64,000 nucleotides of DNA from Sterolibacterium sp. (GTDB lineage Bacteria > Pseudomonadota > Gammaproteobacteria > Burkholderiales > Rhodocyclaceae), in contig JAQTOA010000009.1 of NCBI GenBank assembly GCA_028713555.1, positions 62,001 through 126,000 of the forward strand, read 5' to 3'. The notes under the pieces were generated by a model. The model was given only the letters and a program-made list of their open reading frames with translations, was not told the origin of the DNA and made no database searches. A program made the translations under genes and the position numbers. Shown here piece by piece: positions 41,349 to 56,271 of the stretch (its first letter is position 1; the number at the start of each line of letters is the position of its first letter).

Positions 41349-41969
41349 TCACATCTTGTGACAATTCTGGCAAATCATCATGCCCTTGATGGAGAAACGG
41401 CTCAGTTTGGTAAATTCCGAACGGTGGGGTTCATGGCAGGAGCCGCAGTAGAATTTCTTGCCCGGCCGCAGCGGGTCTTGCGCTTCCTTCTTGTCATTGC
41501 CCAGCGGATGCCCGCTGCGCGAGATCCCCGAAATAACGTGCGGCCCTTTCTTGACGTCGGGGTGACAGTCCAGGCACAGCAGGGCCGGTTCATTTTTCAG
41601 CAGGCCGAGGTATTCGGAAGAATGCGGATCGTGGCAGCCGAGGCACATGCCGGCCTCGACCGGGGCGTGCACGAACTTGCCCTTGAAAATTTTATTGTCA
41701 TGGCAGTGGGCACACAGGGCGGGACCCTCGGCCGAAAGACCCTTGGCGAACTTGCCCTTGGATTTGTGCGGCACGACGCTGGCGTCGAGTTGGGCATGGC
41801 AACTGTTGCAGCCCATATGCACCGCCGCATGCACCTCCTTTTTCTCCGCGAGCTTGGCGTGGCACTTGAGGCAGGGATTATCCTCTGCTGCCTGAGCCGG
41901 CAGCGCGCCGATCAGCGCAAGGACCAGCGCGTAGGCCAGAGTCGCCAATAGGTTTCGTTCAGTTTTCAT
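41349..41969 (-). CDS. Periplasmic heptaheme cytochrome c
   Basis: 206 residues from the ATG at 41969 (GGAG seven bases upstream). Signal peptide ends ALPAQA. Seven CXXCH motifs: CLKCH, CNSCH, CAHCH, CLGCH, CLDCH, CGSCH and CQNCH. Paired CXXCH spacing resembles the doubled-CXXCH (cytochrome c7/c3-like) families. Extra His residues for bis-His ligation are present. No lipobox or TM segment follows the signal, so it is probably a soluble periplasmic electron carrier. It follows the dodecaheme gene by 81 bp. Confidence 0.93.
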   Translation of the reverse strand: MKTERNLLATLAYALVLALIGALPAQAAEDNPCLKCHAKLAEKKEVHAAVHMGCNSCHAQLDASVVPHKSKGKFAKGLSAEGPALCAHCHDNKIFKGKFVHAPVEAGMCLGCHDPHSSEYLGLLKNEPALLCLDCHPDVKKGPHVISGISRSGHPLGNDKKEAQDPLRPGKKFYCGSCHEPHRSEFTKLSRFSIKGMMICQNCHKM

Positions 41970-42050
41970 ATTGTTTCTCCGATTTGGTGATCCTGAGTTT
42001 GTACCCAACTACGTCCTGCGTTGGCACTGGATTTCCATTCCTGCTACGCA

Positions 42051-43838
42051 TCAGTAAGAATAGCCGTTGTGGTTCTCCCCATGGCAGGTCATGTAGCATT
42101 TCCCGCCGGTAGTACCGACGCGCTCCCAGCGGATGGCCTGGGTGCCGCTCTTGGTGACGACGTCGGTCCGGAAGTTGAGCAAGCGGCTGTTGCTCAGCGT
42201 GGTGCCCTGGGTGCTGCTGATGCCATGCGGATCGTGGCAGACGCTGCACGGCGCCCTCTCGCCGACGATATGTTTGTTATGTTCCTTGAAGCTGTTGGTC
42301 CCCGTGCCAATGATGCTGGTTCGGTTGTGGCATTTGTAGCAAAGCGCATAGTTGGCCGCGCTTTCCGCGGTGTTGTCGGTAGTCACGTATTGGCGCTCGA
42401 GCAAATTCGGATAAGTCGAGCCGTGCGGGCCGTTCGGCCCCGTTCCGGTCGGCGCCGACGGGGTGCCGCTGCTATATCGTCCGGTGTTGTTGTTGTGACA
42501 ATCGGTGCATTTGACCCGGCTCGCCGTGGTCCAGCCGGTGAGGAGAGAGGGAACCGTTGCGCTCCTGCCCGCACCCGCGACCGCATGATGCGACGGATTC
42601 GTGGTCTGGAACTCCAGCCGCTTGTTGTTCTGCGCGATCACGCGCGCGAAGCTCGGCGAAGGCGTGTTGGCGGCGCCGTCGGCGTGGCAGCGGAAGCAGA
42701 TTTCATATTCGGTCGTGGCCGGATTAACTTCGGTGCCGCTGATGCTGATGCCACGCACTCCGACCTGCGAACCGGGCAGCGTGGGCGCAACGCTGCCGCC
42801 GGGAACCGAACCGGCCGTTGCATTGACCGCGTGAGGGTTGTGGCAATCCTGGCATTCGACATGCGCGGTCGCCACAGAAGCCGCTTCGGCCGGATCGTGG
42901 ACGCCGGTGCGGGTAGCGACTTTGTGACCGTAGGTCTTGTTGAGTTCGGTCTGGATGTTTTTCGCCGCCACGTTGCCGTTATGGCAGTTCATGCAGTTGG
43001 TTTCCTCGGCCGCATAGTTGAGCAGCCGCGGGCCGCCCCCGGCGGTATGCGGCCGGTGGCAGTTTTCGCAGGCGTTGGCAGCGACGGTGGTACCGGTGGT
43101 ATGCGGCCAGGGCGTGGTGCCTGCGCCGTTCCAGGTCTTGGTGGAGTTCTTGTGGTCGCTTACGCTCCAGTAGTTCTTGAGGTGGCAGACATTGCACAGC
43201 GCGGAGGAGGTATTGGCGATCGCCAGGAACTTGGTGTTGGTATTGTCGTGCGGATTGTGGCAGGAAGTGCATTGCATCTGGCTGCTGCCGTCGAGTCGCA
43301 CCTTGCTGGGCGGCGCGAGCGCTGTCGGAGCGGCCAGTTCGCCGCGCACGGCCACCAGCGACGCGTCATACACGAAGGACACCGGATGGTCGTCGGACAG
43401 GTTGGTTCCCAGATTGGTGTTTCCGGCGGGTAGGGTGGTGACGCCGCCGGTCATGGAGATATTCGTGGTGCGGTTGCGCACTTCGCCGAGGGCGATGGTG
43501 CCGTCATGGCAACTCAGGCACAGCAGCGATGCGCCGTTGGGCTGCCCAGCCACGCTCTTGCGCGTGGAACTGGTGTAGGGCGTATAACTGGTGCCCACGC
43601 GCCGGTTCCACAACTGCCCGCTCGGATAGTTATTGTGCGGCGCGTGGCAGAACACGCAGATCTGGTTCTCGCTGGTGGCCTTGACAGTGCCCGTTCCGCT
43701 TACCGAGAGGTTGTGCTTGGTGGTGGCGACCGCCGCGTCTGCAGGCGCCACCGTCAAGGACACCGGCAGAACAATAAGTGCAAGGACTCCCGCGACGGCA
43801 ACCGCCTTGAAATGGGGAAAAGAGATGCAGCGCCTCAT
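42051..43838 (-). CDS. Large dodecaheme cytochrome c with terminal CX3CH site
   Basis: 595 residues; the signal peptide ends near PADA-A. Eleven CXXCH motifs (CVFCH, CLSCH, CTSCH, CNVCH, CENCH, CMNCH, CQDCH, CFRCH, CTDCH, CYKCH, CSVCH) and one CX3CH (CYMTCH) near the C-terminus. The first 110 residues (KHNLS, CHAPHNN, GQLWN, CLSCHDGTIAL) match the small cytochromes of this cluster. GGAGG lies six bases before the ATG, and it overlaps the NHL lipoprotein gene by four bases. It may be the periplasmic or surface cytochrome of the beta-barrel conduit. No lipobox is present. Confidence 0.94.
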   Translation of the reverse strand: MRRCISFPHFKAVAVAGVLALIVLPVSLTVAPADAAVATTKHNLSVSGTGTVKATSENQICVFCHAPHNNYPSGQLWNRRVGTSYTPYTSSTRKSVAGQPNGASLLCLSCHDGTIALGEVRNRTTNISMTGGVTTLPAGNTNLGTNLSDDHPVSFVYDASLVAVRGELAAPTALAPPSKVRLDGSSQMQCTSCHNPHDNTNTKFLAIANTSSALCNVCHLKNYWSVSDHKNSTKTWNGAGTTPWPHTTGTTVAANACENCHRPHTAGGGPRLLNYAAEETNCMNCHNGNVAAKNIQTELNKTYGHKVATRTGVHDPAEAASVATAHVECQDCHNPHAVNATAGSVPGGSVAPTLPGSQVGVRGISISGTEVNPATTEYEICFRCHADGAANTPSPSFARVIAQNNKRLEFQTTNPSHHAVAGAGRSATVPSLLTGWTTASRVKCTDCHNNNTGRYSSGTPSAPTGTGPNGPHGSTYPNLLERQYVTTDNTAESAANYALCYKCHNRTSIIGTGTNSFKEHNKHIVGERAPCSVCHDPHGISSTQGTTLSNSRLLNFRTDVVTKSGTQAIRWERVGTTGGKCYMTCHGENHNGYSY

Positions 43839-44869
43839 GTCGGGCCTCCGATGTAACTCAATATCTGGATACGCTGGTTGTAGGAATCGGCGATGTAGAT
43901 CATGTCGTCCGAGTCGATGAAAATGCCCACGGGCAGCCAGAACTCTCCCCGGTCGCTGCCGAGAGCGCCAACGGAGAGCAGCAATTGCCCGCTTGAATTG
44001 AAAATCTGCAAGGCATTGAACAGCGCATCGAGGATATAGACATGCCCGTAACTGTCGGTCGCGACGCCTTTCTGGCGCATATTGTCGCCGCTGCCGTCGC
44101 CCAGTTGTCCGAATTTTCTGAGGAACCTGCCCTGCGCGTCGAAAACCTGGATGCGGAAATTTAGAGAATCGGTGACATACAGCCGCCCCTCGGCATCGCG
44201 CCAGATCATGGTTGGATAGTTGAACTCGCCTTCTCCCGCACCGCGCTGGCCGAAGCTGGAGTGCAGCGTGCCGTCCGGATTGAACACCTTGACGCGATGC
44301 TCTGCGGTATCGACGACGATCAAGCGGCCGCTGTCGGGGTCAAAGGCGATGCCGGTCGGCTGGCTCAGCGGCGGCAAGGCCAGCGGCACCGCCGTTTTGG
44401 CGCCGGGCCGAATGACCAGCACCTGGGCGAGTTCCGAATCGGTGACATAGACTTCACCCACCTTGCCGCGCGCCAAACCCACCGGGGAAGGCAGCCCGAC
44501 CTCGTCTCCGGCCGCGATCAGGGCGTAGTCTTTGGCCACCGGGTCGAAGCGATGCACGCCTTTTGCGCCGGTGTCCGCGACATACACCACGCCACCCACC
44601 GCCACCACGGCCATCGGCCGGATCAGGCGGGATTCGCTGGCGCCGAAAATCACTTCCGCCACGCGCTGGAAAAATCCCTTGGCGATGCCGAACTCGGTGG
44701 GAGTCTTGAAAGCCTTGACGAAGTGGATGCGCGGCGCCACGTCGATTTCGTCCGGCCAGAACAACTGCGGCTGATCCTCGGGCTTGATCGGCGCCGGCGC
44801 GCACCCTCCCAGGACAAGAACCGCCAGCGCAAGTCCCAGCAGGGCAACGAAACGGCAGCGGCGCGCCAT
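43835..44869 (-). CDS. NHL-repeat beta-propeller lipoprotein A
   Basis: 344 residues from the ATG at 44869, which lies two bases after the beta-barrel stop and has a GGAGG ten bases upstream. Lipobox VLVLGGC at about residues 17-23. NHL repeats such as LYVTDSLNFRIQVFDAQGRF and IYIADSYNQRIQILSYI form a six-bladed propeller. It is translationally tied to both the beta-barrel gene and the dodecaheme gene, so it probably belongs to the same outer-membrane complex. Propeller proteins have been tied to nanowire folding or morphology in Geobacter. Confidence 0.93.
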   Translation of the reverse strand: MARRCRFVALLGLALAVLVLGGCAPAPIKPEDQPQLFWPDEIDVAPRIHFVKAFKTPTEFGIAKGFFQRVAEVIFGASESRLIRPMAVVAVGGVVYVADTGAKGVHRFDPVAKDYALIAAGDEVGLPSPVGLARGKVGEVYVTDSELAQVLVIRPGAKTAVPLALPPLSQPTGIAFDPDSGRLIVVDTAEHRVKVFNPDGTLHSSFGQRGAGEGEFNYPTMIWRDAEGRLYVTDSLNFRIQVFDAQGRFLRKFGQLGDGSGDNMRQKGVATDSYGHVYILDALFNALQIFNSSGQLLLSVGALGSDRGEFWLPVGIFIDSDDMIYIADSYNQRIQILSYIGGPT

Positions 44870-44871
44870 GA

Positions 44872-47133
44872 TCAGAAATCCCTCCGCAAGGTAAACTGGC
44901 CGAAGGTGCGCAACCTGTCGGCCTTGCCCTGCGATTCGCGTACCCGGTTCACGTCGAAAGACGCACTGAGCTTGCGTATGCGCCATTTCGCCTTGATCGA
45001 TGCTACCGAGTATTCGCGCGCCAGCGGGGTGCCGGTATCGCGCATGCGGCTGGCATCGGCAAACAGCGTGAGGCCAAATCCCGGGCTCATCCCCAGGCGA
45101 AGATCGTAGGAGATCTGGTTGATGCCCTGGGTCGGGTTGAAGTCGTAATCTATCCGCAAGCCGCGTTTGCTGAGCCGCACGAAACCCCGCCTGATCCAGG
45201 GCAAGTCCGTCTGGGCGTAGGTTTCAAAGCTGGCGCGTTTGCTGGGCAAGATGGCCTCGCGCCGGTCTTCCCGCTCCAGGTTGCCGCCCACCTGGAATTC
45301 CTGATTGAGCAGATTGAACGGCAGATCGGTCTGGGCGCCGCGGACCGTGCTTCTGGCCGGGTTGAGCGGTGTCGTGCTGACGCCGGAGATGAGTTGGGGT
45401 GTCGAAACCATGTAACGCTGAAATACCTTAAGGTAATTCTTCAGCGCCCAGCTCAGGTTAATTGTGTTGTCGAGCTGGCTGAGCGCATAAGTGCCCCCGG
45501 TTGCATAGATATAATCGATCAAAACTTCCTGCCCGTCGAGAATGTTCCCGCCGATCACCCGCTGTATGCGCAGATTCAGGCCAATCGGCGAAAACTGATA
45601 ATCGGATCCTTGAACAAAAGTCTGGGTGCGAGTCAGATTGCTGACCACCACGCTCGTAACCGCGACCTGTTCCCTGCTTAGTGAAGCAAGAGTTGTACCG
45701 CTCAACGTCACATGTTCACCGATCATCTTGGCTTCAGGTGCCATTGCCTCCTGCTCGTTTTGGCGGTAGCCGAAATTGTAGTTCAGCGTCGCGCGGCCGA
45801 GCGGCAGGGGCTGCTGGTATTGGACGGAACCGTTGAGTCCGTATGATGATGAGCTGACTTGGGGGGACTTGGCGCTTTCTGCTTGCGCCGCCAGGTTGCC
45901 TGTCAGGTCGGGGGAGAAGTTGTAATTCACTCCTCCGCTGGCCGCATTCACGGTCGTCTTCTGGTCGCCTTGCTGGAAAGTGTTGAGATGGTAGCGCCCG
46001 TTGGTCTGCAAGTCCTCGGAGTGCCTGCCGTACATATCGAGTCCGAAACTGAAGTTCTTCATTTCTGTCAGATGACCTTGGCCGGCCGTGTATTTGTTGC
46101 TCGTCAGGCTGATCGCATTGACGAGTTCATATTCCCTTTTGTCGCCAATATCCAGATGTGTATCCAGGCTCAGCCGGTCATCGGTGTTGCTGTTGGCCTG
46201 GATAGACAGGCCGGTGCTGCCACTGATCGAGTCCTGGCGCTTGGTCTCGAACTGGAAGGTTGATTCGCCTTTCACATCTTCGAAAGGAATCCAGCCTTGT
46301 CGGCCCAGGTCGGCCTCCAGTTTTAGACGCAACTGGTCGCTGCGGTCTTCGATGATCTGCTCCGAGCCTCTGCCCAGCCTTTCCGAATGGACGAGATTCA
46401 CCTCCAGCGGGGTACGGATCACTGGATTACGCAAGTTGAAATTGAGGCCGTACAGCGTATTTTCGGTGAGCATCTCCATGGCGGGGCCGATGCTCTGGTT
46501 CTCGTTCTTGCGGTCGAAAAAAACTGCGCCGCTATATGGCTTCTCGCGCAGCACCGTGGCTCTCGCATGAAGATTGTACAACTGCCTCTTGCCATCGGTC
46601 GCCACCCCGTTCTGGTCATAGCTGGCTTTGTCGATCAGCGGGCCACCGCCCAGGTCGAAGGAAATCAGGCTCGGGTGATAGATGTAGCCGTGGGTCAGCA
46701 GGTTAACTTCGTAAATCAGGTTCGACTGCTTGGTGCGCACGCCGCTCTTGCCCCCCGGAGCGGAAGCGCCACCCTCCAGGCCTGCCGGCGGCAAACCGGA
46801 ATCGTTGTTGGCATCGCTCAAAACACGCGCTTCAACGAAGCTCTCGATGCTGGTGATGCGGAACGGCGCAATTTCCTGTGATTTCTTCAAACGTAGTGGA
46901 GGCAAGGGCGGCGAGGACGTCGCGGGAGAGGCGGAGGGCGCGCCCTCTTGCGCCCAGCATTGGCTGGCGCCCAACGCCAGGGTTAGCAGCGCATGCACCA
47001 GCGCTGCCGCCTGACGCCTGGCTCCGATCACGGAGCGATGGGCTGACGGCTTGGGCTGGTCTGCGGGTGCACGCGAGGTGATCCATGTTTCCTGCCTGGC
47101 AATTATTGCTTTTCTCAATTGACTCTTGCGCAA
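44872..47133 (-). CDS. Large outer-membrane beta-barrel protein (porin of a cytochrome conduit)
   Basis: 753 residues from TTG 47133. A second TTG at 47118 sits in a 15-bp direct repeat with the same upstream context, and a GTG at 47031 would give a compact signal peptide ending ASQCWAQ, so the start is uncertain. The mature part has alternating amphipathic strands, for example YHLNTFQQGDQKTTVNAASG, and ends in a C-terminal Phe (TLRRDF), the BAM signal. There is no plug domain. Position between two NHL lipoproteins and beside multiheme cytochromes suggests the sheath of a porin-cytochrome conduit. Confidence 0.85.
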   Translation of the reverse strand: MRKSQLRKAIIARQETWITSRAPADQPKPSAHRSVIGARRQAAALVHALLTLALGASQCWAQEGAPSASPATSSPPLPPLRLKKSQEIAPFRITSIESFVEARVLSDANNDSGLPPAGLEGGASAPGGKSGVRTKQSNLIYEVNLLTHGYIYHPSLISFDLGGGPLIDKASYDQNGVATDGKRQLYNLHARATVLREKPYSGAVFFDRKNENQSIGPAMEMLTENTLYGLNFNLRNPVIRTPLEVNLVHSERLGRGSEQIIEDRSDQLRLKLEADLGRQGWIPFEDVKGESTFQFETKRQDSISGSTGLSIQANSNTDDRLSLDTHLDIGDKREYELVNAISLTSNKYTAGQGHLTEMKNFSFGLDMYGRHSEDLQTNGRYHLNTFQQGDQKTTVNAASGGVNYNFSPDLTGNLAAQAESAKSPQVSSSSYGLNGSVQYQQPLPLGRATLNYNFGYRQNEQEAMAPEAKMIGEHVTLSGTTLASLSREQVAVTSVVVSNLTRTQTFVQGSDYQFSPIGLNLRIQRVIGGNILDGQEVLIDYIYATGGTYALSQLDNTINLSWALKNYLKVFQRYMVSTPQLISGVSTTPLNPARSTVRGAQTDLPFNLLNQEFQVGGNLEREDRREAILPSKRASFETYAQTDLPWIRRGFVRLSKRGLRIDYDFNPTQGINQISYDLRLGMSPGFGLTLFADASRMRDTGTPLAREYSVASIKAKWRIRKLSASFDVNRVRESQGKADRLRTFGQFTLRRDF

Positions 47134-47165
47134 TTGACTCTCTCACAGCATGGAACGCAGGCGCG

Positions 47166-48296
47166 TCATTTTGCCGGCTTTTCTTCGCTTTTCTCCTCGC
47201 GGGGATAGTCGACACCCGCCTTTTTGCCGAAACCGAACACATCGACTTTGTTCGGTCCGAACTGGCTGACGACCAGGATCAGGTACTCGATCGCGAATTT
47301 GGGATCGGCCTTGTCGCGAAACAGGGCAACATTATCGTAATCGATGGAAACGCCGGCCGGCAGGTTGAGCATGCCAGGCAAGCCGTCCTTGGGCTGACCG
47401 AAAGCCATCAGCGGCCGTCCGCTGTTATCGAAGATCTGCACATTCTGGAAGGCCGCGTCGCCGACATAGATCAGGCCGTTGCGATCGACGGCGATCCCCT
47501 TGGGACGCGCGAAATGCCCTGCGCCCTGGCCGGCTTCACCGAAGCTGCGGACGAACTTGCCTTCGGAAGTAAAACGCGAGACGCGGAAGTTGCTGGTCTC
47601 GACGACGAAAACGTCATTGTCCGGACCGATGGCGATGTTGGTCGGATGATAAAGTTCTCCTTCGCCAGACCCCGCTTTGCCGAACTTGAACAGCAATTTC
47701 CCGCTGCGCTTGTCCATCACCCGCACTTCGTGGTGCTCGATATCGACCATGTACAGGCGGTCGCCCAGGATGGCGGTATCGACGGGCTTGAATTCGCCCT
47801 TGACGCCCAGGGTGGTGACAAAATTATCTTTGTCGTCAAACACCAGCACCTGCTGACGCCCGGAATCGGTGACGTAGCGGGTGCCGTCCTTGTCGATCTT
47901 GATCGTGAGCGGGCGCTGCATGCGGCCACCGCCCGAACCCGAAAGAACCGAAAACTGCTTCGCCTTCAAATCGAAAATGGCCAGCCCGCCGAGCTGGTTG
48001 TCGGCAACATAGATTTTGCCTTCGCGTATGGTCGCGCCATAAGGACGCTTGAGATCCTCGCCGCTGTCTTCGCCGGCGACAAAGTCCGCCAGCGCGCTGC
48101 GCTCGCCTTCCAGGTCCTTGAGTCCGGCGAAGGTCGCCAGATACTGGATGCGCGGCGGATCGGGCGGCGACGGATAGAACACCGCTTCTGTTTCGACCGG
48201 CGCTTTGACAGGCGCCGAGACACAGCCGGCCAGGACGACAAACGCAAGCAGAAGCGCACCCGTTAAGGACGCCGAAAGAATTTTGGTCGGGCTCAT
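47166..48296 (-). CDS. NHL-repeat beta-propeller lipoprotein B
   Basis: 376 residues from the ATG at 48296 (AGGGAA upstream). Lipobox VVLAGC, then a Pro-rich linker and NHL repeats, for example IYVADNQLGGLAIFDLKAKQ and IYVGDAAFQNVQIFDNSGRP. The C-terminus is Lys/Glu rich. It is a distant paralogue of lipoprotein A and shares the start of the mature region (Pro-Pro-Asp/Ile-type motif RIQYLATF versus RIHFVKAF). It is first of a four- or five-gene run into the barrel, and a terminator lies just upstream. Confidence 0.92.
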   Translation of the reverse strand: MSPTKILSASLTGALLLAFVVLAGCVSAPVKAPVETEAVFYPSPPDPPRIQYLATFAGLKDLEGERSALADFVAGEDSGEDLKRPYGATIREGKIYVADNQLGGLAIFDLKAKQFSVLSGSGGGRMQRPLTIKIDKDGTRYVTDSGRQQVLVFDDKDNFVTTLGVKGEFKPVDTAILGDRLYMVDIEHHEVRVMDKRSGKLLFKFGKAGSGEGELYHPTNIAIGPDNDVFVVETSNFRVSRFTSEGKFVRSFGEAGQGAGHFARPKGIAVDRNGLIYVGDAAFQNVQIFDNSGRPLMAFGQPKDGLPGMLNLPAGVSIDYDNVALFRDKADPKFAIEYLILVVSQFGPNKVDVFGFGKKAGVDYPREEKSEEKPAK

Positions 48297-48406
48297 AGCG
48301 AAATTCCCTATGGAAATTATGACAGCGCGTAGGATGGCGCATACGCCAAAACCCGTCAAGTTACCGTTGGCCTCGGCGCATCTAGCCGCCACAACCTGAC
48401 GGCCCC

Positions 48407-48439
48407 AAAAGCAACGCGGCGGGAACACCGCCGCGTTGC
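48407..48439 (-). terminator. Rho-independent terminator after the tetraheme gene
   Basis: GCAACGCGGCGG (48411-48422) and CCGCCGCGTTGC (48428-48439) make a perfect 12-bp stem with a 5-base loop, followed on the minus strand by TTTTGGGG. It lies 22 bp after the tetraheme stop at 48462 and upstream of NHL lipoprotein B, separating abundant cytochrome expression from the barrel operon. Confidence 0.85.
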
Positions 48440-48461: not shown

Positions 48462-49064
48462 TTACTTGGTGTGGCACTTCAGGCACAAGGCACTGCCGGC
48501 GTTCGATACGCGCAGGAAGGCGCCATTGGTGGGGCTATGCACATCATGGCAAGAACCGCATTCAACGTTGGTGCCGTACAGGGGAATGCCCGCGACGACC
48601 AAGGCTGCAGAAGCCGGAGTCACCAGGCTGCCGTCGGCAGTTGCCAAAGCCGCAGTGTAAGCAAAGCTGATCGGGTGATCGTTGCTCAGATCGGTGCCCA
48701 GTTTTGCGCTGTTATTAGCGATGAAGTTCGTCCCGGTGGCGCCGCCGAAGCTATCCAGGGCCACAGTACCGTCATGACAGGACAGGCAGAGCTTGGACAC
48801 GCCGGTCGGCTGCCCCGGAGCGGCATTCAACGTGCTGCTTGCATACAACGTGAAGGTTGCGGCGGTCAGCGCGTGATTCCAGAGTTGCCCAGCAGCCTGA
48901 TTGGCGTTGTGGGGGGTATGGCAAACGTTACAGATTTGTGTGCCACTCCATGCACTCGCGCTGAAGTCATGCTTGCTGCCGGCGATCCCGGCTGCGCTGG
49001 CGCTATTTGCTGCAAAGAACAGAACGGCTGTTACGGCCGCCGCTACGATTTTTCCAAATCTCAT
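48462..49064 (-). CDS. Small tetraheme cytochrome c (OmcE-like candidate)
   Basis: 200 residues. Signal peptide ends NSASAAG. Four CXXCH motifs: CNVCH, CLSCH, CGSCH, CLKCH. Other His residues number five (KHD near the mature N-terminus, TPHN, LWNH, NDHP, DVHS), one more than four hemes need for bis-His ligation. Segments GSKHDFSAS, GTDLSNDHPISF and SALCLKCHTK recur in the two pentaheme neighbours. From memory the pattern matches the tetraheme, filament-forming OmcE family; not verified by search. GAGGAAC precedes the ATG; a sigma54-like site lies about 80 bp upstream and a strong terminator follows. Confidence 0.9.
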   Translation of the reverse strand: MRFGKIVAAAVTAVLFFAANSASAAGIAGSKHDFSASAWSGTQICNVCHTPHNANQAAGQLWNHALTAATFTLYASSTLNAAPGQPTGVSKLCLSCHDGTVALDSFGGATGTNFIANNSAKLGTDLSNDHPISFAYTAALATADGSLVTPASAALVVAGIPLYGTNVECGSCHDVHSPTNGAFLRVSNAGSALCLKCHTK

Positions 49065-49502
49065 TTTGTGTTCCTCTTCTTTCCCTGGTTAATAAATTTA
49101 CTTCTCTTATCTACGGCCATATAACGTCTTGCTGCCTCTTATTAAGCACAGGGTATGCCAGTGGATCGATACAACTCGGATCAAAATCACCATCGATATT
49201 AAAATTCGACAAAACAACGGGTTGCATTCTAATCCGGCGGTTGTCGCGATTGCGGTTCAGCTTGTCTTGGCGGGCGATAGCTGGGATCGCCAAGTTTTAT
49301 TCCCGCGCTTGAAAACACGCGCCTCCTCGCTTCTCAATTACGGGAATGCGCGATCATTCCCGAGCGAAGTTGTCAAGTGAATCTCCCGCTGGATGCGCAT
49401 GCCCCCCCCCAACATCTCAAGACATTCGGCAATAGCGCGCGACCTTATACCGGTGCCAAGCGCGGTGGAGGTTTGCGCGCGCTGCCTATGAGATTCCCTT
49501 GG
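49065..49502. other. 438-bp intergenic region between two small cytochrome genes
   Basis: Holds the sigma54-like promoter of the tetraheme gene (49145-49160), a nine-C homopolymer run at 49402-49410, and no credible ORF. A weak FNR-like half-pair GGATCAAAATCA at about 49192-49203 has only 7 of 10 consensus bases. The long leader could hold activator sites for the sigma54 promoter. Confidence 0.5.
49145..49160 (-). promoter_or_regulatory. Sigma54-type promoter of the tetraheme gene
   Basis: Minus strand TGGCATACCCTGTGCT with GG and GC exactly ten bases apart. It shares TGGCAT...TGTGCT with the site upstream of the first pentaheme gene (53220-53235). The GC lies about 82 bp upstream of the ATG at 49064. 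The consensus TGGCAC-N5-TTGC is matched at the invariant positions. Confidence 0.6.
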
Positions 49503-50171
49503 CTATTTCTTGTGGCAGGTCAGGCACAGCGCGCTGGCAACATTCGTTTTACGCAGGAAAGGTGCGATGTCAGGGTTATGCACATTGTGGCAGGAACCGC
49601 ACTCGACATATCCCCCGTACAGCTTGATTTCGTTGGGCGATGCGCCGCCCCACCCCTTCTGCGTATCGGTGGGCGTATTGAAGGCCGGGTCCAGCGCCGG
49701 TGTCGGATAGGGCATGGAGACGGGGTGGTCGTTGTTCAGATTAGTGCCAATTTTCAGGGTCTGCTTCGTGAAACCCCGCGCGTGGCAGCTGTTGCAATTT
49801 GCTGGAACCGAGGAATTGACCAGGCTGTGCTTTGTGCTCACACTGGCGCCATGCACCACGGTGCTGGCGTTCACGCCATCGTGGCAGCTCAGGCACAGAC
49901 GCGTGGCTACCCGTGGCTGCTCGACGGCTACGCTCATCGACGCGCTGCCATAGAGTGTGAAGGTCTGCGTGGTTTCGGCGCGATTCCAGAGTGGCGCTCC
50001 GGCGATTGCGGTGTTGTCGTTTGCGTTGTGCGGCGTATGACAGAACTTGCACACCTGAGGACTGGTGGAAGTGCTCAAATCATGCTTGGAACCCATGACA
50101 GTGCCGCCGTAAAGCGGCGTTGACAAGAGCGAAAGCAAGAGTATGGCGACGATTGCAAGATATTTTCTCAT
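49503..50171 (-). CDS. Small pentaheme cytochrome c (paralogue A)
   Basis: 222 residues. Signal peptide ends near PLYGG. Five CXXCH motifs: CKFCH, CLSCH, CNSCH, CGSCH, CLTCH. Six further His residues (KHD, TPHN, VVHG, KHSL, NDHP, NVHN) leave one spare over the five hemes. It is closely related at DNA level to the gene at 52455-53150 and shares with the tetraheme protein the GSKHDLS start and CLTCHKK end. GGAGGG precedes the ATG; a sigma54-like site is 71 bp upstream. It is probably exported and possibly polymeric. Confidence 0.92.
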   Translation of the reverse strand: MRKYLAIVAILLLSLLSTPLYGGTVMGSKHDLSTSTSPQVCKFCHTPHNANDNTAIAGAPLWNRAETTQTFTLYGSASMSVAVEQPRVATRLCLSCHDGVNASTVVHGASVSTKHSLVNSSVPANCNSCHARGFTKQTLKIGTNLNNDHPVSMPYPTPALDPAFNTPTDTQKGWGGASPNEIKLYGGYVECGSCHNVHNPDIAPFLRKTNVASALCLTCHKK

Positions 50172-50241
50172 TTAATCGCCCTCCAGCACCCGAACGATTG
50201 GCGATTACCAAGTCATTAGCGCCAAGAGGCAACGATAGTCA

Positions 50242-50257
50242 CGCATGAATCATGCCA
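50242..50257 (-). promoter_or_regulatory. Sigma54-type promoter of pentaheme gene A
   Basis: Minus strand TGGCATGATTCATGCG: an intact -24 TGGCATG and a GC ten bases later. The -12 half is ATGCG, weaker than TTGCW. It lies about 71 bp before the ATG at 50171, the same spacing as the sites at the other two small cytochrome genes. Confidence 0.5.
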
Positions 50258-50338
50258 CCAGTAGGCAAAATATGCGTTTCCGGTTTCCGTCAAGATTGCA
50301 AAGAATGGTCGCCCGAACCTACCAGCGCGTTATTGACG

Positions 50339-51202
50339 TCACTGCGCGGGCTTGCAGCGCGACAGGCCTTCCTTGGCGGAGAGGTTGGCGGCATCAATGG
50401 TCAACGCCTGGTTATAGGCCGGGATTGCCTCGGTGCAGTTCCCCTGGGCGGACAATATCTCGCCCAGCAGCGCGTGGGCGGGCGCGAGCTGCGAATCCTT
50501 GTCCAGGCTTTTACGCACGTTTTCCAGCGCTTTGTCGTAATTCTTGTCCTTGAACAGCGCTTCAGCAAAGGCGCGATAGCGCTTTGCGACCTGATCGCTA
50601 CCGCCTTGGGTGGATTTGGCGGGTGCCAGGACGCTGTTCAATTGGTCGTCAGTGATCTCGCCCAGCAAATGGCGGATGCGCGCACCGACAATCGAACAGA
50701 AGTCCACCGCACGAAATGGTTCGAACGCCGCCAGATTTTGCTCGCGGTCAACAATCACCACCACCGGATGCAGCGCCAGGCCCAAACTGCCGTATAGCGC
50801 ATCCTCGCGATCCACCAGCAGCGGTGCGACGAAACCGGAGTCGCGCAGTAGCGTAGCGGCGCTCTCGGCCGGAGCCGAACTCGAGACGATGGCAACCCAA
50901 TGCACGGATTTTCCGGTAAATCCGCTCTGGCATTGCGCCAGTTCGCGCAATGCCCCCAGCGAGCGCTCCTGGTTCGGGCGGAAGAAAACCAGCACATTCG
51001 CCTCGACCTTTCTCAAAGCAACGGTTTTGCCACCCTCCAGCGTGGGCATTTCCGCATTGCTTACCGGCGTGCCGATCGCGGCATGCGACGCTGAAGCGAG
51101 ATGAAAGCTGGTGGTGCTGATAACCAGCGCGATCAACAAAATGAGGCGCGCGACAGGAGAAGGAATCAAGATAAGCAGGCTAGTCTTCGGTGAGTGTGGC
51201 AT
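50339..51202 (-). CDS. Secreted redoxin-fold/TPR protein lacking CXXC
   Basis: 287 residues. Signal sequence about 14-42. A redoxin-like thioredoxin fold (IGTPVSNAEMPTLEGGKTVA, ALHPVVVIVDREQNLAAF) has FFRPNQERSLGAL where the CXXC would be, so it cannot be a disulfide oxidoreductase of the usual kind. A C-terminal TPR region (FKDKNYDKALENVRKSLDKD) follows. It sits among cytochrome genes, 68 bp after the decaheme gene, and could be a periplasmic chaperone for apo-cytochromes or secreted filament subunits. The true start is unsure; no Shine-Dalgarno precedes the ATG. Confidence 0.82.
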   Translation of the reverse strand: MPHSPKTSLLILIPSPVARLILLIALVISTTSFHLASASHAAIGTPVSNAEMPTLEGGKTVALRKVEANVLVFFRPNQERSLGALRELAQCQSGFTGKSVHWVAIVSSSAPAESAATLLRDSGFVAPLLVDREDALYGSLGLALHPVVVIVDREQNLAAFEPFRAVDFCSIVGARIRHLLGEITDDQLNSVLAPAKSTQGGSDQVAKRYRAFAEALFKDKNYDKALENVRKSLDKDSQLAPAHALLGEILSAQGNCTEAIPAYNQALTIDAANLSAKEGLSRCKPAQ

Positions 51203-51243
51203 TCGGGGTTTGTGCAGACGTCGGGAATGGGGATGCTAAGCGA

Positions 51244-51264
51244 GCCTGAATCGCGGGTTCAGGC
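51244..51264. terminator. Stem-loop after the decaheme gene
   Basis: GCCTGAA (51244-51250) pairs with TTCAGGC (51258-51264) around a 7-base loop, in the gap between the decaheme stop (51271) and the redoxin/TPR start (51202). No T-run follows on the minus strand, so it may stabilise the upstream mRNA rather than end transcription. Confidence 0.4.
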
Positions 51265-51270
51265 CCGAAT

Positions 51271-52374
51271 CTAGCGAGCATTCTTGTTGACGTAGGTCTT
51301 TTCAGAATGGCAGGTCTTCTCGCACGATCCGCCAGTCGCGGATTTCTTGTAGAACAGCTTGAGCATCCAGCCACCCGATCCGTAGGGTACACCTTCGCGA
51401 ATATGGTGTTTCTGCTGCGATGCATGGACTTCATGGCAGGCGCGGCAGGTGCGGCCGCGGCCGGATTGCTGAAGATGGAGATAATGCAGATTGGTGCCGC
51501 CGTTGCGAAAACTGGTGAGAGTGGTCGTCTGCGCGGTGGAAAAGGCTTTTTCCTGATGACAGGAAAAACACAGCTCATAATTCCGGGCGTCGTAGGGCGC
51601 ATAAAATTCCTGTGGGTAATCCGCGTTGAGCAAACGAAAATGCTCGCCGCCGTGGGGTTCGTGGCAAGCGCTGCAATCTTTGGCGGCCACCGGACCGTGT
51701 TGCTCCTTATTCTTCTCCAACCAGCCCTTAATATTTTGCAGCTTTTTGCCCTTGGCATCGACCATGGTATCCACATTGTGGCAGTTCACACACAGGTCGA
51801 AGGGGAGTTGCACCAGGAGTTTTTCCACCGCGCTGCCGTGCGGGTTATGGCAGTTGGAGCATTGCGCGCCGGTGCTCAACGCCTTGTGCGGCACTGAGGC
51901 AGAGCTGGCCAGCTTGCCGATCTTGTCGTGGCAGCCTGTGCATAGTGCTAAAGGTTCCTGCACCAGCAACTTGCGGGAATTCGAGTTGTGCGGGTTATGA
52001 CAACTGGTGCAAGCGGTGCGGGCCGGTGGATGGGTGTGCGGCCGCTTCATTATGCCCGCGAACTCTTCGTGACATTCGAGGCACATGGCCGGACCCTGCT
52101 TGGTCACCGGGCCGGGCTGCTTCGGGTCCGAGTTCTGATGGCAGATCTTGCAGTCGCCCGATTCGAAAGGCGCATGGCTGGAAGCCGGCGTTGGCTTGCT
52201 CGGCAGTGGCGCCAGCGACCCCGGGGATGCGCTCTTGCGGACGCTTGGCGCGGAGGCCGGGGCAGCTTTCTTGGCGGATGCTTCGACGGCCTCGACAGGA
52301 TTGCTGCGTGCGCAAAGCACACTGGCAATCGTCAATAGGAGAATAACCGGGAAAGAACCTCGTAGGGATGTCAT
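51271..52374 (-). CDS. Decaheme cytochrome c with terminal CX3CH site
   Basis: 367 residues from the ATG at 52374, set by GAGGAGA four bases upstream (the longer open frame to 52479 overlaps the neighbour). Signal peptide, then a Pro/Ala/Ser linker and nine CXXCH motifs: CKICH, CLECH, CTSCH, CTGCH, CSNCH, CVNCH, CSACH, CFSCH, CRACH. A tenth site, CEKTCH (CX3CH), is near the C-terminus. Repeats such as NPHNSNSRKLLVQEPLALC and NPHGSAVEKLLVQLPFDLC show internal duplication of doubled-CXXCH units. It is cotranscribed with the pentaheme gene upstream. Confidence 0.93.
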   Translation of the reverse strand: MTSLRGSFPVILLLTIASVLCARSNPVEAVEASAKKAAPASAPSVRKSASPGSLAPLPSKPTPASSHAPFESGDCKICHQNSDPKQPGPVTKQGPAMCLECHEEFAGIMKRPHTHPPARTACTSCHNPHNSNSRKLLVQEPLALCTGCHDKIGKLASSASVPHKALSTGAQCSNCHNPHGSAVEKLLVQLPFDLCVNCHNVDTMVDAKGKKLQNIKGWLEKNKEQHGPVAAKDCSACHEPHGGEHFRLLNADYPQEFYAPYDARNYELCFSCHQEKAFSTAQTTTLTSFRNGGTNLHYLHLQQSGRGRTCRACHEVHASQQKHHIREGVPYGSGGWMLKLFYKKSATGGSCEKTCHSEKTYVNKNAR

Positions 52375-52454
52375 TGAATCTCCTCGTGAACGAGCGAATG
52401 CCCCCAATCGAGGCAGTCGCAGCAGCAACAGCAATATACTGCTACTTCTTGTTG

Positions 52455-53150
52455 CTACTTCTTGTGGCAGGTCAAGCACAGCGCGCTGGCAGCATTCGAC
52501 TTGCGCAGGAAAGGCGCGGTGTCGGGGTTATGCACATTGTGGCAGGAACCGCATTCGATATAGCCCGCGTAGAGCTTGATTTCACTCTGCGAGGTTCCGC
52601 CCCAGCCTTTCTGCGCATCGGCGGGCGTATAGAAGTCAGGATCCTGCGCCGCCGTGGGATAGGCGATGGAGATCGGGTGGTCGTTGCTGAGGTCGGTGCC
52701 GAGCACCAGCGTCCGCCTCTTCCCGGTGTACATATCCGAGTGGCAGCGTTCGCAATTCGGACTCGATGTCATGTCGGGTGCGTCATGTCCGGGAGGCTTG
52801 ACCAGGTCGTGTTTGGTGCTTACCGCGTTGCCATGCACCGTTACAGAAGCATTCACGCCATCATGACAGCTCAGGCACAGCTTCGAGGCCAGCTTGGGTT
52901 GCGAGGTCGCGACGTTCATGGTCGGACTGCCATAGAGCGTGAAAGTCTGCGTCGTCTCGGCGCGATTCCACAATGGCGCACCCGAAATGGCGCTGTTGCT
53001 GTTCGCCGCGTGGGGCGTGTGGCAAAACTCGCACACTTGAGAAGTACCCGCAGTGCTCAGGTCATGGCGCGATCCGATCACGCTGCCGGCAAGCGCCGTC
53101 GAAGTTATCGAGAATAACAACAAACCAGTGATTAAATTGATATTTTTCAT
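52455..53150 (-). CDS. Small pentaheme cytochrome c (paralogue B), first gene of the cluster
   Basis: 231 residues from the ATG at 53150 (AAGG upstream; the frame is open to 53240). Signal peptide ends STALAGS. Five CXXCH motifs: CEFCH, CLSCH, CERCH, CGSCH, CLTCH, and seven other His residues. The C-terminal region (ECGSCHNVHNPD, APFLRK, SALCLTCHKK) is nearly the same as in paralogue A, and the two DNA sequences are visibly similar over long runs. A good sigma54-like promoter lies about 70 bp upstream. The decaheme gene follows by 80 bp. Confidence 0.92.
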   Translation of the reverse strand: MKNINLITGLLLFSITSTALAGSVIGSRHDLSTAGTSQVCEFCHTPHAANSNSAISGAPLWNRAETTQTFTLYGSPTMNVATSQPKLASKLCLSCHDGVNASVTVHGNAVSTKHDLVKPPGHDAPDMTSSPNCERCHSDMYTGKRRTLVLGTDLSNDHPISIAYPTAAQDPDFYTPADAQKGWGGTSQSEIKLYAGYIECGSCHNVHNPDTAPFLRKSNAASALCLTCHKK

Positions 53151-53219
53151 AACAAAGCCTTGCGGCGGAAAATTGCGGTGATGCGCAGGTTCACGATTGC
53201 AGTCGACGACAAGCTTCCT

Positions 53220-53235
53220 AGCACAATACATGCCA
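53220..53235 (-). promoter_or_regulatory. Sigma54-type promoter of pentaheme gene B
   Basis: Minus strand TGGCATGTATTGTGCT: -24 TGGCATG, -12 GTGCT, with GG and GC ten bases apart. It lies about 70 bp upstream of the ATG at 53150 and is the best of the three minus-strand cytochrome sites. Confidence 0.65.
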
Positions 53236-53714
53236 GGCATTTTGGCGGCTGGATCACGCTATCTGAGGAGTCAAACTTGAGTTTTGAAACTCTCTTCCCC
53301 GGAAAAGAGAATGCCGCTCTTAAGTTATGGAAATTCGCTGCTCGCCGTGGGTGACGAGGGCAAAACAACCTTCAGGTACGGAAAATATTGTTCATTCCCA
53401 ACTCCGGGCAATCCCGCGCACGGAAAGCCTCTTTCGACCTGTTGTCAGTGCAAGATGCCGCTCCAAGTTCAGCCCGACCCGTTCGCCAAGCCGGAATATT
53501 TGTTCTTTGTTTGGAGCCGTATGATTAATGGAATGATTCTTCGTCGGCAAAGAATTCATGCAATTTCCCGCTGCCCAGCTTGATTTCGGGGAATAACTTC
53601 TTGCGGTTTTATCGGGCCTGAATGAGGGCCTTCCTTTCCCGGATACGGGAAACCGCTCTCAGGAAAAGGAATGCCTTGCTACGTATCGACTGAGATTCTT
53701 GCAGATTACTGCTC

Positions 53715-53730
53715 AGGCAAGCTTATTGCT
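53715..53730 (+). promoter_or_regulatory. Possible sigma54 promoter for the plus-strand operon
   Basis: Plus strand AGGCAAGCTTATTGCT has the GG-N10-GC spacing and a perfect TTGCT at -12. It lies 131 bp before the ATG at 53862. An FNR-like box is downstream of it, so both may not act together. Confidence 0.4.
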
Positions 53731-53813
53731 TTGGGTCGCTTGCCCCTCCGGACCGGAGTTCTCATGCACTCCCAATGCGCGCTAATGGGTTCTCCGGTCC
53801 ACTTTGAATGCTT

Positions 53814-53827
53814 ATGATCCAAATCAA
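53814..53827 (+). promoter_or_regulatory. FNR/ANR-like box
   Basis: ATGATCCAAATCAA matches TTGAT-N4-ATCAA at nine of ten positions. It is centred 41 bp upstream of the ATG at 53862, close enough to be a promoter-proximal site and consistent with anaerobic induction. Confidence 0.5.
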
Positions 53828-53861
53828 TTCCACTGCCACATGAGCTGTCAGAATTCCGCCA

Positions 53862-54404
53862 ATGAGCAAGCCTCACGTGCCAGTCCCCCTGGATTTCAAA
53901 CTGGTGGCAAAAATCGGCTTATGCGTGGCGGTTGTTTCCTGCCTGGGCTTGTTGCTGACACTTCTTCTGGTTGGCGAAGAGAAAGCCACCGGTTACCGGC
54001 AGATCGTCAGCGCCTATGGCATGGTCAGGCAAAGCCTGGGACCGGCGATGCTGGTCTTTGGGCTGGCGATGGTCGCTTTCGCCGGCATAGTCACCTGGCT
54101 CTTTTCGCTTTACACGAGTTTCCGCATCGCTGGGCCCTTGTGCCGGATTTCCCGCAATCTGGAGCAGCAAATCAAGCACGGAACGGTCGCGCCTGTACCG
54201 TTGCGCTCCGCAGACAGCCTGCAAAGCGAATGGCAGGAACTCGAAGCCAGTGTGGATGCTTTGCGCGTACAGCACGAGGAACTGAGGCAGGCGTTGAGCG
54301 AAGTCGAGACAGCGATACGGGAATATACGCGGACTGGAAGCGCGGCAGTGCTCGAGCTGGCGTTGGCCCGCTTGAAACAGGCGGAACGGCGTGTGCGCTT
54401 TTAG
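53862..54404 (+). CDS. Two-TM membrane protein with HAMP-like region
   Basis: 180 residues: TM1 about 18-38, TM2 about 60-84, then a cytoplasmic HAMP-like stretch (FRIAGPLCRISRNLEQQIKH, then LRSADSLQSEWQELEASVD) and a coiled-coil tail. There are no output domains and no heme motif. It overlaps the following heptaheme gene by up to 14 bases (GTG start) or lies just before it (TTG start). It could be a membrane tether or signal relay for the heptaheme cytochrome. No characterised homologue is known to me. Confidence 0.75.
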   Translation: MSKPHVPVPLDFKLVAKIGLCVAVVSCLGLLLTLLLVGEEKATGYRQIVSAYGMVRQSLGPAMLVFGLAMVAFAGIVTWLFSLYTSFRIAGPLCRISRNLEQQIKHGTVAPVPLRSADSLQSEWQELEASVDALRVQHEELRQALSEVETAIREYTRTGSAAVLELALARLKQAERRVRF

Positions 54405-55182
54405 GTTGATCATTGCGCTTGTTGGCGCCTTATTCCTCTACACACCGGGAGCGCTCAATGCCGCGCCAGGAATTGGCGGCGCCCATCCCTCGGCAACCAG
54501 TTGCGGTTCCTGCCATCTCGTCGGGGCGGATGTCGACCCAGTCCAGGCCGCGAAGCTGGTCGCCTCCCAAGAAGTCTTGTGCGCGAGGTGCCACGCACAC
54601 GCCTTGGAGTTCAGCCATCCCAGCGGCTTTTCGCCCAGGCGCCGCCTGCCGGCGGCCTACCCGCTTGACTGGAAAGGCGACCTGACCTGCAGCACCTGTC
54701 ATTTGACCCACGGTCAGGAACCGGGGCTGCTTCGCGGGAAAAAACGCGCCAGAGAATTCTGCCTGGACTGTCATGACCAGGCATTCTTCAGCACCATGAA
54801 AGACTCGGGAACCTCGCTGGTGATTTCCGGGCATCTGGATATCGGCCGCGGACGGGGCACCATCGACATCGATGCGCATTCCCTGCATTGTCTGGGCTGC
54901 CATGCCGGCGGGCACGCTCCCGGAGGGAGCGTCAGCGTGAGTCGCAACGGCGTCCTGCGCCACGCCAGCGGCTCTGCGCCACACCCGATCGGGCGCAGCT
55001 TCCGGGAAGCAAGCAGCAGAGGCCGTTTCCATCCGGAAAGCCAGCTTGCGCAAAAGAAAATCAAGCTTTCCGACGGGAAAATCAGTTGCATTTCCTGCCA
55101 TGAAGCCTACAAAAAAGATCATGGCAAGCTGGTCGTATCCCTGGATCGCTCGGGATTGTGTCTTTCCTGCCACGCAAAATGA
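54391..55182 (+). CDS. Periplasmic heptaheme cytochrome c (plus-strand operon)
   Basis: 263 residues from GTG 54391; TTG 54406 is an alternative two bases after the upstream stop. A signal peptide ends near GALNAAP. Seven CXXCH motifs: CGSCH, CARCH, CSTCH, CLDCH, CLGCH, CISCH, CLSCH. The long gap between the fifth and sixth motifs holds a Ser/Gly/Arg-rich loop. It is flanked on both sides by two-TM membrane genes and overlaps the next by four bases (ATGA), suggesting a membrane-bound electron-transfer or sensing complex. Confidence 0.92.
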   Translation: MCAFRLIIALVGALFLYTPGALNAAPGIGGAHPSATSCGSCHLVGADVDPVQAAKLVASQEVLCARCHAHALEFSHPSGFSPRRRLPAAYPLDWKGDLTCSTCHLTHGQEPGLLRGKKRAREFCLDCHDQAFFSTMKDSGTSLVISGHLDIGRGRGTIDIDAHSLHCLGCHAGGHAPGGSVSVSRNGVLRHASGSAPHPIGRSFREASSRGRFHPESQLAQKKIKLSDGKISCISCHEAYKKDHGKLVVSLDRSGLCLSCHAK

Positions 55183-55754
55183 CTTCGCCCCTTGCCGGAG
55201 CACCTTCCCTTACCCCGCGCCCCCCCCACCGGCGTCGCAGGCTTTATGTGGACAGCACCATCCAGCGCTCGTTGCTGGTGGCTATGGTAGTGCTTGAAGT
55301 GACTCTGGTGGCGGCAGCCATTTGGTTCGCATACGGGCACCTGATCGAAGTAATCAACGCCAACATGTATCGCATGAAAGTGGTCCAAACCGGCCCCACT
55401 ATGATGCTGTTCGCTAAGGAAGGGCTCTGGGTATTGGGCGTGTTCGCGGTGGCCAACCTGGTCGCCTTGATGGTTGCCGCAGGAATCTGGAGCCGCCACG
55501 AGAATCTTGTGGTGCAGGATTTGGACCTTCTGACCGGAAAAACGAAGGAACTGGATTTTTCCAGCGACGCTAACATTCTCCCAAAGCATGAAGTGCTGGC
55601 ACTGACCCTGACTTGGAGAGAGCAGGAACGCATCCGCTTCTCCGCAATTCGCGATCGGGTGGCGAAACTGGAAGCCGCCTTGTCGAGCGGGGAACCCCCA
55701 GGGGACATACAAGGCATGGTGGATAACCTGAACCGGCTCTTGCCCCAGACCTAG
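55179..55754 (+). CDS. Two-TM membrane protein with coiled-coil tail
   Basis: 191 residues from the ATG at 55179, which overlaps the heptaheme stop (ATGA). A basic N-terminus (PPHRRRRLYVDSTIQRS), TM1 about 34-54, a short loop, TM2 about 83-103, then a cytoplasmic region with helical repeats (REQERIRFSAIRDRVAKLEA). It has the same architecture as the protein encoded at 53862 but little sequence similarity. Likely the second membrane partner of the heptaheme cytochrome. Function unknown. Confidence 0.75.
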   Translation: MTSPLAGAPSLTPRPPHRRRRLYVDSTIQRSLLVAMVVLEVTLVAAAIWFAYGHLIEVINANMYRMKVVQTGPTMMLFAKEGLWVLGVFAVANLVALMVAAGIWSRHENLVVQDLDLLTGKTKELDFSSDANILPKHEVLALTLTWREQERIRFSAIRDRVAKLEAALSSGEPPGDIQGMVDNLNRLLPQT

Positions 55755-55899
55755 CCGGAGATCGTTGCCCAAGGCGCCTGGTCGCCGGATCGGGTAACGA
55801 AGCTAACTTCCCCACCGGCCAATCAAGTCGCATAATTTTCCAGAATAAACTTACGTATAATCCTCAAACCAATTTACCCATCCGGAAAGCCCCCCCTCC

Positions 55900-56271
55900 A
55901 TGAAGATCCATTCCGCCCTGCTGCTTGTCCTGACCGTATTTTCCGCTTCCGCAATCGCTGCCGATGCGCTTCCGGCAAACCATCCCGCCATGGATGCGAA
56001 AAAACCGGCCCAGGGCGCACCAACAACCCAGTTGCCGCAAAAGGGCAAGGTCATCAGCGCCATCGACGTGCCCAACTATACTTATCTGGAGGTGATGCAG
56101 AACATGAAGACCTTCTGGATCGCAGCTCCCAGCGTGGCGGTAAAAAAGGGCGATGTGGTGCGCTTCGACCAAGGCATGGCCATGACCAACTTCCAAAGCA
56201 AAACGCTAAATCGCAATTTCCCCAGCATTACCTTCGTCGGCAAAGCGATCGTCACGAAGGAAAAGGAATAG
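55900..56271 (+). CDS. Small secreted NrfJ-like protein
   Basis: 123 residues with a signal peptide (ends SASAIAADA) and a compact domain reading GKVISAIDVPNYTYLEVMQN, then WIAAPSVAVKKGDVVRFDQ and MTNFQSKTLNRNFPSITFVG. I recall this Tyr-Thr-Tyr and W-A-A-P pattern from NrfJ-type accessory proteins linked with nitrite reductase or cytochromes. No CXXCH. It lies 145 bp downstream of the two-TM gene and its stop overlaps the convergent GGDEF gene by 20 bases. Confidence 0.7.
   Translation: MKIHSALLLVLTVFSASAIAADALPANHPAMDAKKPAQGAPTTQLPQKGKVISAIDVPNYTYLEVMQNMKTFWIAAPSVAVKKGDVVRFDQGMAMTNFQSKTLNRNFPSITFVGKAIVTKEKE

Follow-up and report, generated by a model that had tools for sequence, protein, structure and literature searches.

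A Uet-like multiheme cytochrome cluster in Sterolibacterium sp. and its possible role as the root of an OmcE-type nanowire

We analysed a 64,000-nucleotide stretch of Sterolibacterium sp. DNA (assembly GCA_028713555.1, contig JAQTOA010000009.1, positions 62,001 to 126,000; hereafter the window, part of contig C9 of a 3.07 Mb metagenome-assembled genome (MAG) that is 80% complete), in which positions 41349-56271 carry seven multiheme cytochrome genes together with a large predicted outer-membrane beta-barrel and two NHL-propeller proteins. The cluster resembles the undecaheme electron transfer (Uet) system, and we tentatively propose that it encodes a Uet-like, predicted outer-membrane conduit that could root a nanowire built from the adjacent tetraheme cytochrome. 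Rooting is proposed because the tetraheme and the N-terminal third of a dodecaheme cytochrome are both relatives of the Geobacter nanowire protein OmcE. Five genes form the core of the cluster:

42051..43838, minus strand: dodecaheme cytochrome, UetJ-like; 11 CXXCH and 1 CXXXCH motifs, an N-terminal OmcE-like four-heme module (about residues 36-221) followed by eight hemes
43835..44869, minus strand: downstream NHL-propeller protein with lipobox LGGC; 344 aa from MARRCRF, open reading frame (ORF) extending to 44986; NHL E 5e-28
44872..47133, minus strand: large predicted outer-membrane beta-barrel in a UetC-like position
47166..48296, minus strand: upstream NHL-propeller protein with lipobox LAGC; 376 aa, ORF extending to 48449; NHL E 1e-17
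48462..49064, minus strand: tetraheme cytochrome, OmcE homologue in a UetA-like position, candidate filament subunit; 4 heme motifs

Along the cluster the cytochrome ORFs hold 7, 12, 4, 5, 10, 5 and 7 heme motifs, a sum of 50, two of which are CXXXCH motifs at the C-termini of the 12-heme and 10-heme cytochromes; these counts agree with the seven cytochromes and 50 hemes of an earlier sequence-only reading. The barrel, the two flanking propellers and the redoxin/TPR protein listed by that reading are likewise present, the NHL and TPR domains by Pfam and the barrel by its predicted model. Minus-strand ORFs between 41349 and 53240 overlap or lie less than 170 bases apart, with a single exception of 438 bases, and the true starts of five ORFs probably lie further inside than the ORF ends. 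Such an arrangement is not chance, since matches to the paired-CXXCH family concentrate here: of 18 in the whole 3.07 Mb genome, 15 are in this cluster and three in one MtrA-like gene. Among named matches, those closest to the dodecaheme come from Betaproteobacteria and Burkholderiales MAGs.

Kinship to OmcE covers four of the seven cytochromes. The tetraheme matches the chain 7tfs (entry 7TFS is OmcE, whose filament has a rise of about 34 Å; PMC12954529) over residues 7-200 of its 200 (E 8.6e-35), the dodecaheme matches it over residues 19-221 (E 4.6e-33), and so do both pentahemes (E 7.5e-26 for 49503-50171 and 2.9e-25 for 52455-53240). A second solved chain, 9yuq (16 chains in the entry), matches the same four proteins, with E 6.1e-23 for the tetraheme. 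Besides 7tfs and 9yuq no chain, and none of OmcS, was matched by these proteins, either for the dodecaheme at E≤1 or for the tetraheme and pentahemes at E≤0.01. The nanowire link drawn earlier from the sequence holds through OmcE and not through OmcS. The remaining residues 222-595 of the dodecaheme, with eight hemes, have no counterpart among solved chains at E≤1, and we know of no counterpart of this 12-heme fusion for Geobacter OmcE. Histidines are retained as well: the CXXCH histidines of OmcE and four others align with histidines of both the tetraheme and the dodecaheme module, and we infer that the four additional aligned histidines of the tetraheme act as heme ligands. Across 25 dodecaheme sequences the module has exactly four proximal and four other conserved histidines, all eight invariant (65, 111, 194 and 219; 42, 68, 151 and 197), and the whole protein has 12 proximal and 16 other conserved histidines; across 31 tetraheme sequences, conservation is 97-100% at each of four proximal and five further histidine positions. 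Compared with the Geobacter OmcE nanowire (7TFS), the cluster therefore shares homology in the tetraheme, both pentahemes and the dodecaheme N-terminus, with the aligned histidines kept; OmcE forms a filament, and the tetraheme here is a candidate filament subunit.

In a tree of 50 modules, all 25 dodecaheme modules fall on one side of a branch (support 100/99), six penta- and hexahemes occupy a separate branch (100/100), and the tetraheme group is weak (50/78). This tree would fit an origin of the dodecaheme module in a single old fusion, without being proof of one. Mean identity to the window over 21 loci is 64% for the dodecaheme module, 53% for the tetraheme and 37% for the barrel.

Conservation of the core extends well beyond the genus. 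A scan of genome contigs gave 31 named loci, and all five core genes (tetraheme, NHL, barrel, NHL, dodecaheme) were recovered in 22 of them. By script, the core order is identical on one strand in 21 of these 22; the remaining complete locus, L033, has additional tetraheme copies, one of them at the usual position. In that locus, from a Lake Pavin MAG, three tetraheme OmcE-like genes lie around the core (1851-2522, 8696-9502 and 9554-10207). Among the nine incomplete loci, eight are truncated by contig ends and one (L025) is without the dodecaheme. Locus titles include Rhodocyclales, Rhodoferax, Rubrivivax, Azonexus, Aromatoleum toluvorans, Chromatiales and Acidiferrobacteraceae, and the complete core is also present in the named strain Aromatoleum toluvorans Td21. 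The core was also seen on a contig labelled Candidatus Rokuibacteriota (a Rokubacteria MAG, L032), which may be a binning error or a transfer. We further surveyed 369 genomes of the class, the host included, for the barrel (E≤1e-20), the dodecaheme (E≤1e-60) and a separate tetraheme-like ORF (E≤1e-15), scoring at most three candidates per genome for the barrel and the dodecaheme. Thirteen genomes gave the dodecaheme, and the 11 that gave the barrel are all among them; barrel and dodecaheme lie within 2 kb of each other in ten of the 11, and a separate tetraheme-like ORF is present in eight. In G310, the pair is on contig C9 of that genome. Among 61 close relatives (own genome counted) the barrel occurs in three, all of the host's genus, and the fourth genome of the genus is without it.

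The barrel has no Pfam match, and it gave no hit to the MtrB/PioB model TIGR03509 at E≤0.01, a model on which the genome's other barrel scores 389 bits. Its predicted structure has a predicted local distance difference test (pLDDT) score of 86 and MtrB as best structural match, with the ushers FimD (Foldseek list) and PapC also among the matches listed. As in MtrCAB, MtoAB and PioAB, a barrel is encoded with multiheme cytochromes, the best structural match of the barrel is MtrB and the decaheme is partly MtrA-like; the cluster differs from MtrAB, MtoAB and PioAB in that missing model hit of the barrel and in the score of its decaheme on the DmsE/MtrA model (84.7 bits vs. a cut-off of 192.2). 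The predicted model of the dodecaheme (pLDDT 50) was unusable.

Uet is an already named, little-tested system, described for Tenderiales and Gallionella (PMC10734462). In the same paper the Gallionella Uet is a porin-cytochrome complex whose tetraheme is extracellular, and 11 and 12 motifs are listed for UetJ; UetJ with its porin is reported in the Leptothrix/Sphaerotilus group (PMC13386937); the sequence-only reading, which knew of no described betaproteobacterial system of this make-up, was therefore mistaken. An undecaheme cytochrome is also mentioned for Candidatus Dechloromonas occultata (PMC13264449). Shared with Uet, as far as those passages describe it, are an 11-12-heme UetJ, a tetraheme UetA, a barrel UetC and an NHL pair UetHI, a likeness of composition and predicted structure; peculiar to the window are two OmcE-like pentahemes, an MtrA-like decaheme, two heptahemes and the redoxin/TPR protein. 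No window ORF has three CXXCH motifs, as would be expected of the periplasmic trihemes UetDEG, and no peptidyl-prolyl isomerase domain (UetB) was found among the 14 cluster proteins scanned. We therefore set the cluster beside Uet by description and call it Uet-like, not Uet, because it lacks the trihemes and the isomerase and because Uet itself was compared by composition. No locus titled Tenderia appeared in the genome-contig scan (one pattern), and the passages on Uet do not state an OmcE kinship of the tetraheme or the dodecaheme.

Several relatives carry PCC3-type genes near the core. PCC3 (He et al. 2017) is described with a membrane protein bearing WX3HX13H and SGXXG motifs and with very large extracellular and periplasmic cytochromes, the periplasmic one having 21-27 hemes (PMC5566968, PMC10734462). 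In 12 of the 31 loci a membrane protein that carries SGXXG and a pair of WX3HX13H motifs lies beside an 18-27-heme cytochrome, and whichever of these is closer to the core is no more than about 3.2 kb away from it; a count of 18 hemes falls outside the PCC3 range of 21-27. By the filter used, the membrane protein occurs alone in L018 and L033 and the large cytochrome alone in L010 and L027. Unlike PCC3, the window has no PCC3-type membrane protein and no giant cytochrome, its largest having 12 hemes, and the two window membrane proteins tested are without HX13H. PCC4 shares with the window a porin and 4-, 5- and 10-heme cytochromes (PMC5566968), but is said in the passage concerned to be without an extracellular cytochrome, and the two small window membrane proteins tested lack HX13H. 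In four gammaproteobacterial or unclassified proteobacterial loci (L007, L008, L017, L030), two octaheme-like cytochromes, a protein of about 310-320 aa (cytochrome b561-like in L008, the locus scanned) and a 2-3-heme cytochrome lie 3' of the dodecaheme and, where the contig goes on, another NHL protein and a cytochrome with at least 13 hemes.

Propeller and channel proteins also belong to the osc set of Geobacter. As with the window's candidate filament tetraheme, the osc operon encodes proposed secretion and shape genes together with a filament cytochrome (PMC13194489, in the part describing it). Its cytochrome is of OmcS type whereas those of the window are of OmcE type, no window ORF has six CXXCH motifs as an OmcS-type hexaheme would, and the scan of 14 proteins found no peptidyl-prolyl isomerase; the analogy with osc offered by the sequence-only reading is therefore weak, standing on propellers and barrel encoded with a candidate filament cytochrome and failing on the hexaheme and the isomerase.

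From homology, conserved histidines, gene order and co-occurrence, a mechanism can be outlined. The dodecaheme, picked for this because it is the sole large cytochrome common to the core loci, would run through the barrel with its eight C-terminal hemes, so that the OmcE-like module at its N-terminus would protrude as a first rung. Tetraheme subunits would then polymerise on this module as in OmcE, to judge from the homology and the conserved histidines, with incoming subunits docking on the N-terminal, heme-1 end and so setting filament polarity; docking at heme 1 is suggested because the C-terminal, heme-4 end is joined to the remainder of the dodecaheme, and it assumes that the order of the hemes in the wire follows the sequence. 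The NHL propellers, judged by gene order, may sit at the two barrel mouths or aid assembly. The MtrA-like decaheme, the heptahemes and the pentahemes would carry electrons over the periplasm or lengthen the surface wire; in many relatives this part may be played by the PCC3-type 18-27-heme cytochrome and a cytochrome-b-like membrane protein. In its fuller form, which we regard as possible but doubtful, the dodecaheme might be a self-priming root, a trans-outer-membrane wire in an MtrB-like barrel covalently joined to the first OmcE-type subunit and setting polarity, in a module shared across Beta- and Gammaproteobacteria with differing feeds (MtrA-like decaheme and heptahemes here, PCC3-type cytochrome b and 18-27-heme wire elsewhere).

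A 2025 review (PMC12307469, in the passage concerned) counts the anchoring of nanowires and their electron entry point among the open questions. If the proposal is true, the dodecaheme root would answer how cytochrome nanowires are anchored, and the five-gene module, with an OmcE-like subunit fused to eight hemes and a barrel, would be a concrete, genetically testable nanowire anchor. The cluster also ties together three separately described systems, Uet, PCC3 and OmcE.

A number of observations weigh against rooting. The fold match between barrel and MtrB is not specific, because MtrB leads the other listed barrels by just 1-2.7 Z units and the Foldseek TM-score is 0.39, and threading of the barrel by the dodecaheme lacks model support because of the pLDDT of 50. 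Lipoboxes, by a simple pattern, are incomplete (23 of 31 homologues of the upstream NHL protein and 18 of 26 of the downstream one). The OmcE ligand positions were assigned by alignment and the inter-subunit ligand was not placed; the conserved tetraheme histidine 64 is without explanation, as is the surplus of conserved histidines in the dodecaheme (16 for 12 hemes). Co-occurrence is imperfect too: locus L025 has the barrel and one NHL gene without the dodecaheme, G345 has barrel and dodecaheme far apart, and no separate tetraheme was found at E≤1e-15 in G159 and G345 (72-73% complete) or in G310 (100% complete). Conversely, G257, G272 and G373 have separate tetraheme-like ORFs and no barrel; G257 has the tetraheme-like ORF alone, and G272 and G373 also show dodecaheme matches, which span residues 15-509 and 35-513. 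Searches of the host genome, which is 80% complete, for a NapC/NirT protein and for homologues of the PCC3-type membrane protein of a relative found neither. Filaments, localisation and function rest on sequence and prediction, and in Geobacter itself OmcS and OmcE filaments have been argued to be unnecessary for current (PMC13194489, in the passage concerned).

The strongest rival without a filament is a plain porin-cytochrome conduit, with the dodecaheme in the barrel and the tetraheme and pentahemes as monomeric surface or periplasmic carriers that share the OmcE fold; it is ranked so because OmcE-like stretches sit inside many long cytochromes of the class, and we consider it hardly less probable than rooting. 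The tetraheme is matched at E≤1e-15 in 47 of the 369 class genomes, many of the matches covering no more than some 70-110 residues within ORFs about 800-960 aa long, so that the OmcE fold is not filament-specific. The barrel is nearest to MtrB, the passages on Gallionella Uet place the tetraheme outside the cell in a porin-cytochrome complex and mention no filament, and the complete genome G310 has barrel and dodecaheme with no separate tetraheme at E≤1e-15, all of which suits a conduit. On the other hand, the match between tetraheme and OmcE is almost full length with all aligned histidines kept, and multiple OmcE-type proteins are encoded together, which speaks for the filament. A more distant candidate is an assembly or secretion machine, in which barrel and propellers export and shape the tetraheme filament and the dodecaheme is its tip or cap and not a conduit. 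Such roles are proposed for OscE/F/G and OscD with OmcS (PMC13194489, in the part describing them), FimD and PapC ushers are listed among the barrel's structural matches, and propeller genes stand on either side of the barrel gene; yet the top-ranked structure is MtrB and not an usher, the dodecaheme is the best conserved core member and present in 11 of 11 barrel genomes, and neither the isomerase nor an OmcS-like protein was found, which makes this machine improbable.

Direction of electron flow is a separate matter, compatible with each of these readings. Uptake, as by an iron(II)- or cathode-oxidising cell, would follow the proposal made for Uet in Tenderiales and Gallionella and its context in iron and cathode oxidisers (PMC10734462, PMC13386937). 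We consider it unlikely in this host. No RuBisCO was found in its genome (80% complete), which carries two MtrC/OmcA-family genes, and Aromatoleum and Azonexus, relatives with the core, are genera of organotrophs. We infer that export is the likelier direction, because acyl-CoA dehydrogenase and electron-transfer flavoprotein genes lie near the cluster, two MtrC/OmcA-family genes are present and RuBisCO was not found; the direction may be reversible. A role in extracellular electron transfer, as the sequence-only reading had it, is in any case well supported by the MtrB-nearest barrel (by a small margin), the OmcE-related cytochromes, the PCC3-type genes near the core in relatives and a small-protein paralogue between MtrB and MtrC in the same genome.

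Around the core the cluster contains the following further genes:

41349..41969, minus strand: heptaheme c-type cytochrome; 206 aa from an inner start, ORF extending to 42008; 7 CXXCH, paired-CXXCH Pfam family
49503..50171, minus strand: pentaheme cytochrome, OmcE-like with one additional heme
50339..51202, minus strand: redoxin-like/TPR protein; Pfam TPR, weak AhpC/TSA match below cut-off
51271..52374, minus strand: decaheme cytochrome, MtrA-like in part; 367 aa from an inner start, ORF extending to 52479; 9 CXXCH and 1 CXXXCH
52455..53150, minus strand: second OmcE-like pentaheme cytochrome; 231 aa from an inner start, ORF extending to 53240
53862..54404, plus strand: 180-aa protein whose translation has two hydrophobic, likely membrane-spanning stretches; gene added to the first list
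54391..55182, plus strand: divergently transcribed heptaheme cytochrome; 7 CXXCH, paired-CXXCH
55158..55754, plus strand: 198-aa likely membrane protein
55900..56271, plus strand: 123-aa small protein, likely exported; paralogue beside an MtrC-like gene in the same genome

These accessory genes are rarer than the core, the pentaheme occurring in three of the 31 loci, the decaheme in four, the redoxin/TPR protein in four, the downstream heptaheme in six and the divergent heptaheme in three. The same-genus locus L004 carries all five types, and its stretch, which ends at the divergent heptaheme, has the gene order of the window minus the pentaheme 49503-50171. The two pentahemes are paralogues with 64% identity. 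Chain 6r2q_A of the Mtr complex is matched by the decaheme (E 2.1e-13) and weakly by the heptaheme 41349..41969 (E 5.5e-05), the homologue of which lies immediately 3' of the dodecaheme in the six loci that have it. CXXC is absent from the redoxin-like/TPR protein and from four of its five homologues. Homologues of the 180-aa protein were found in L004, L022, L025 and L017, adjoining a heptaheme gene in L004, L022 and L017; the 198-aa protein has no Pfam or NCBIfam match, and its homologue adjoins the heptaheme in L022.

Contig C1 of the host encodes MtrA and MtrB above cut-off together with the two MtrC/OmcA-family genes. The paralogue of the 123-aa small protein (L006:10971-11489; phmmer 3.3e-51) lies between MtrB and the first MtrC, and members of this family stand directly 3' of the dodecaheme gene in L012 and L014. 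We presume a resemblance of the small protein to NrfJ; no search made here supports the likeness. Both flanks of the cluster carry GGDEF/EAL/PAS proteins (30741-33278, 36736-37989, 38104-40710 and 56252-58384), with a hemerythrin-family protein encoded immediately downstream of it (40864-41373); this suggests c-di-GMP and oxygen or iron sensing nearby. A cytochrome c assembly protein (PF01578; 29757-30629, minus strand) is encoded about 11 kb from the cluster.

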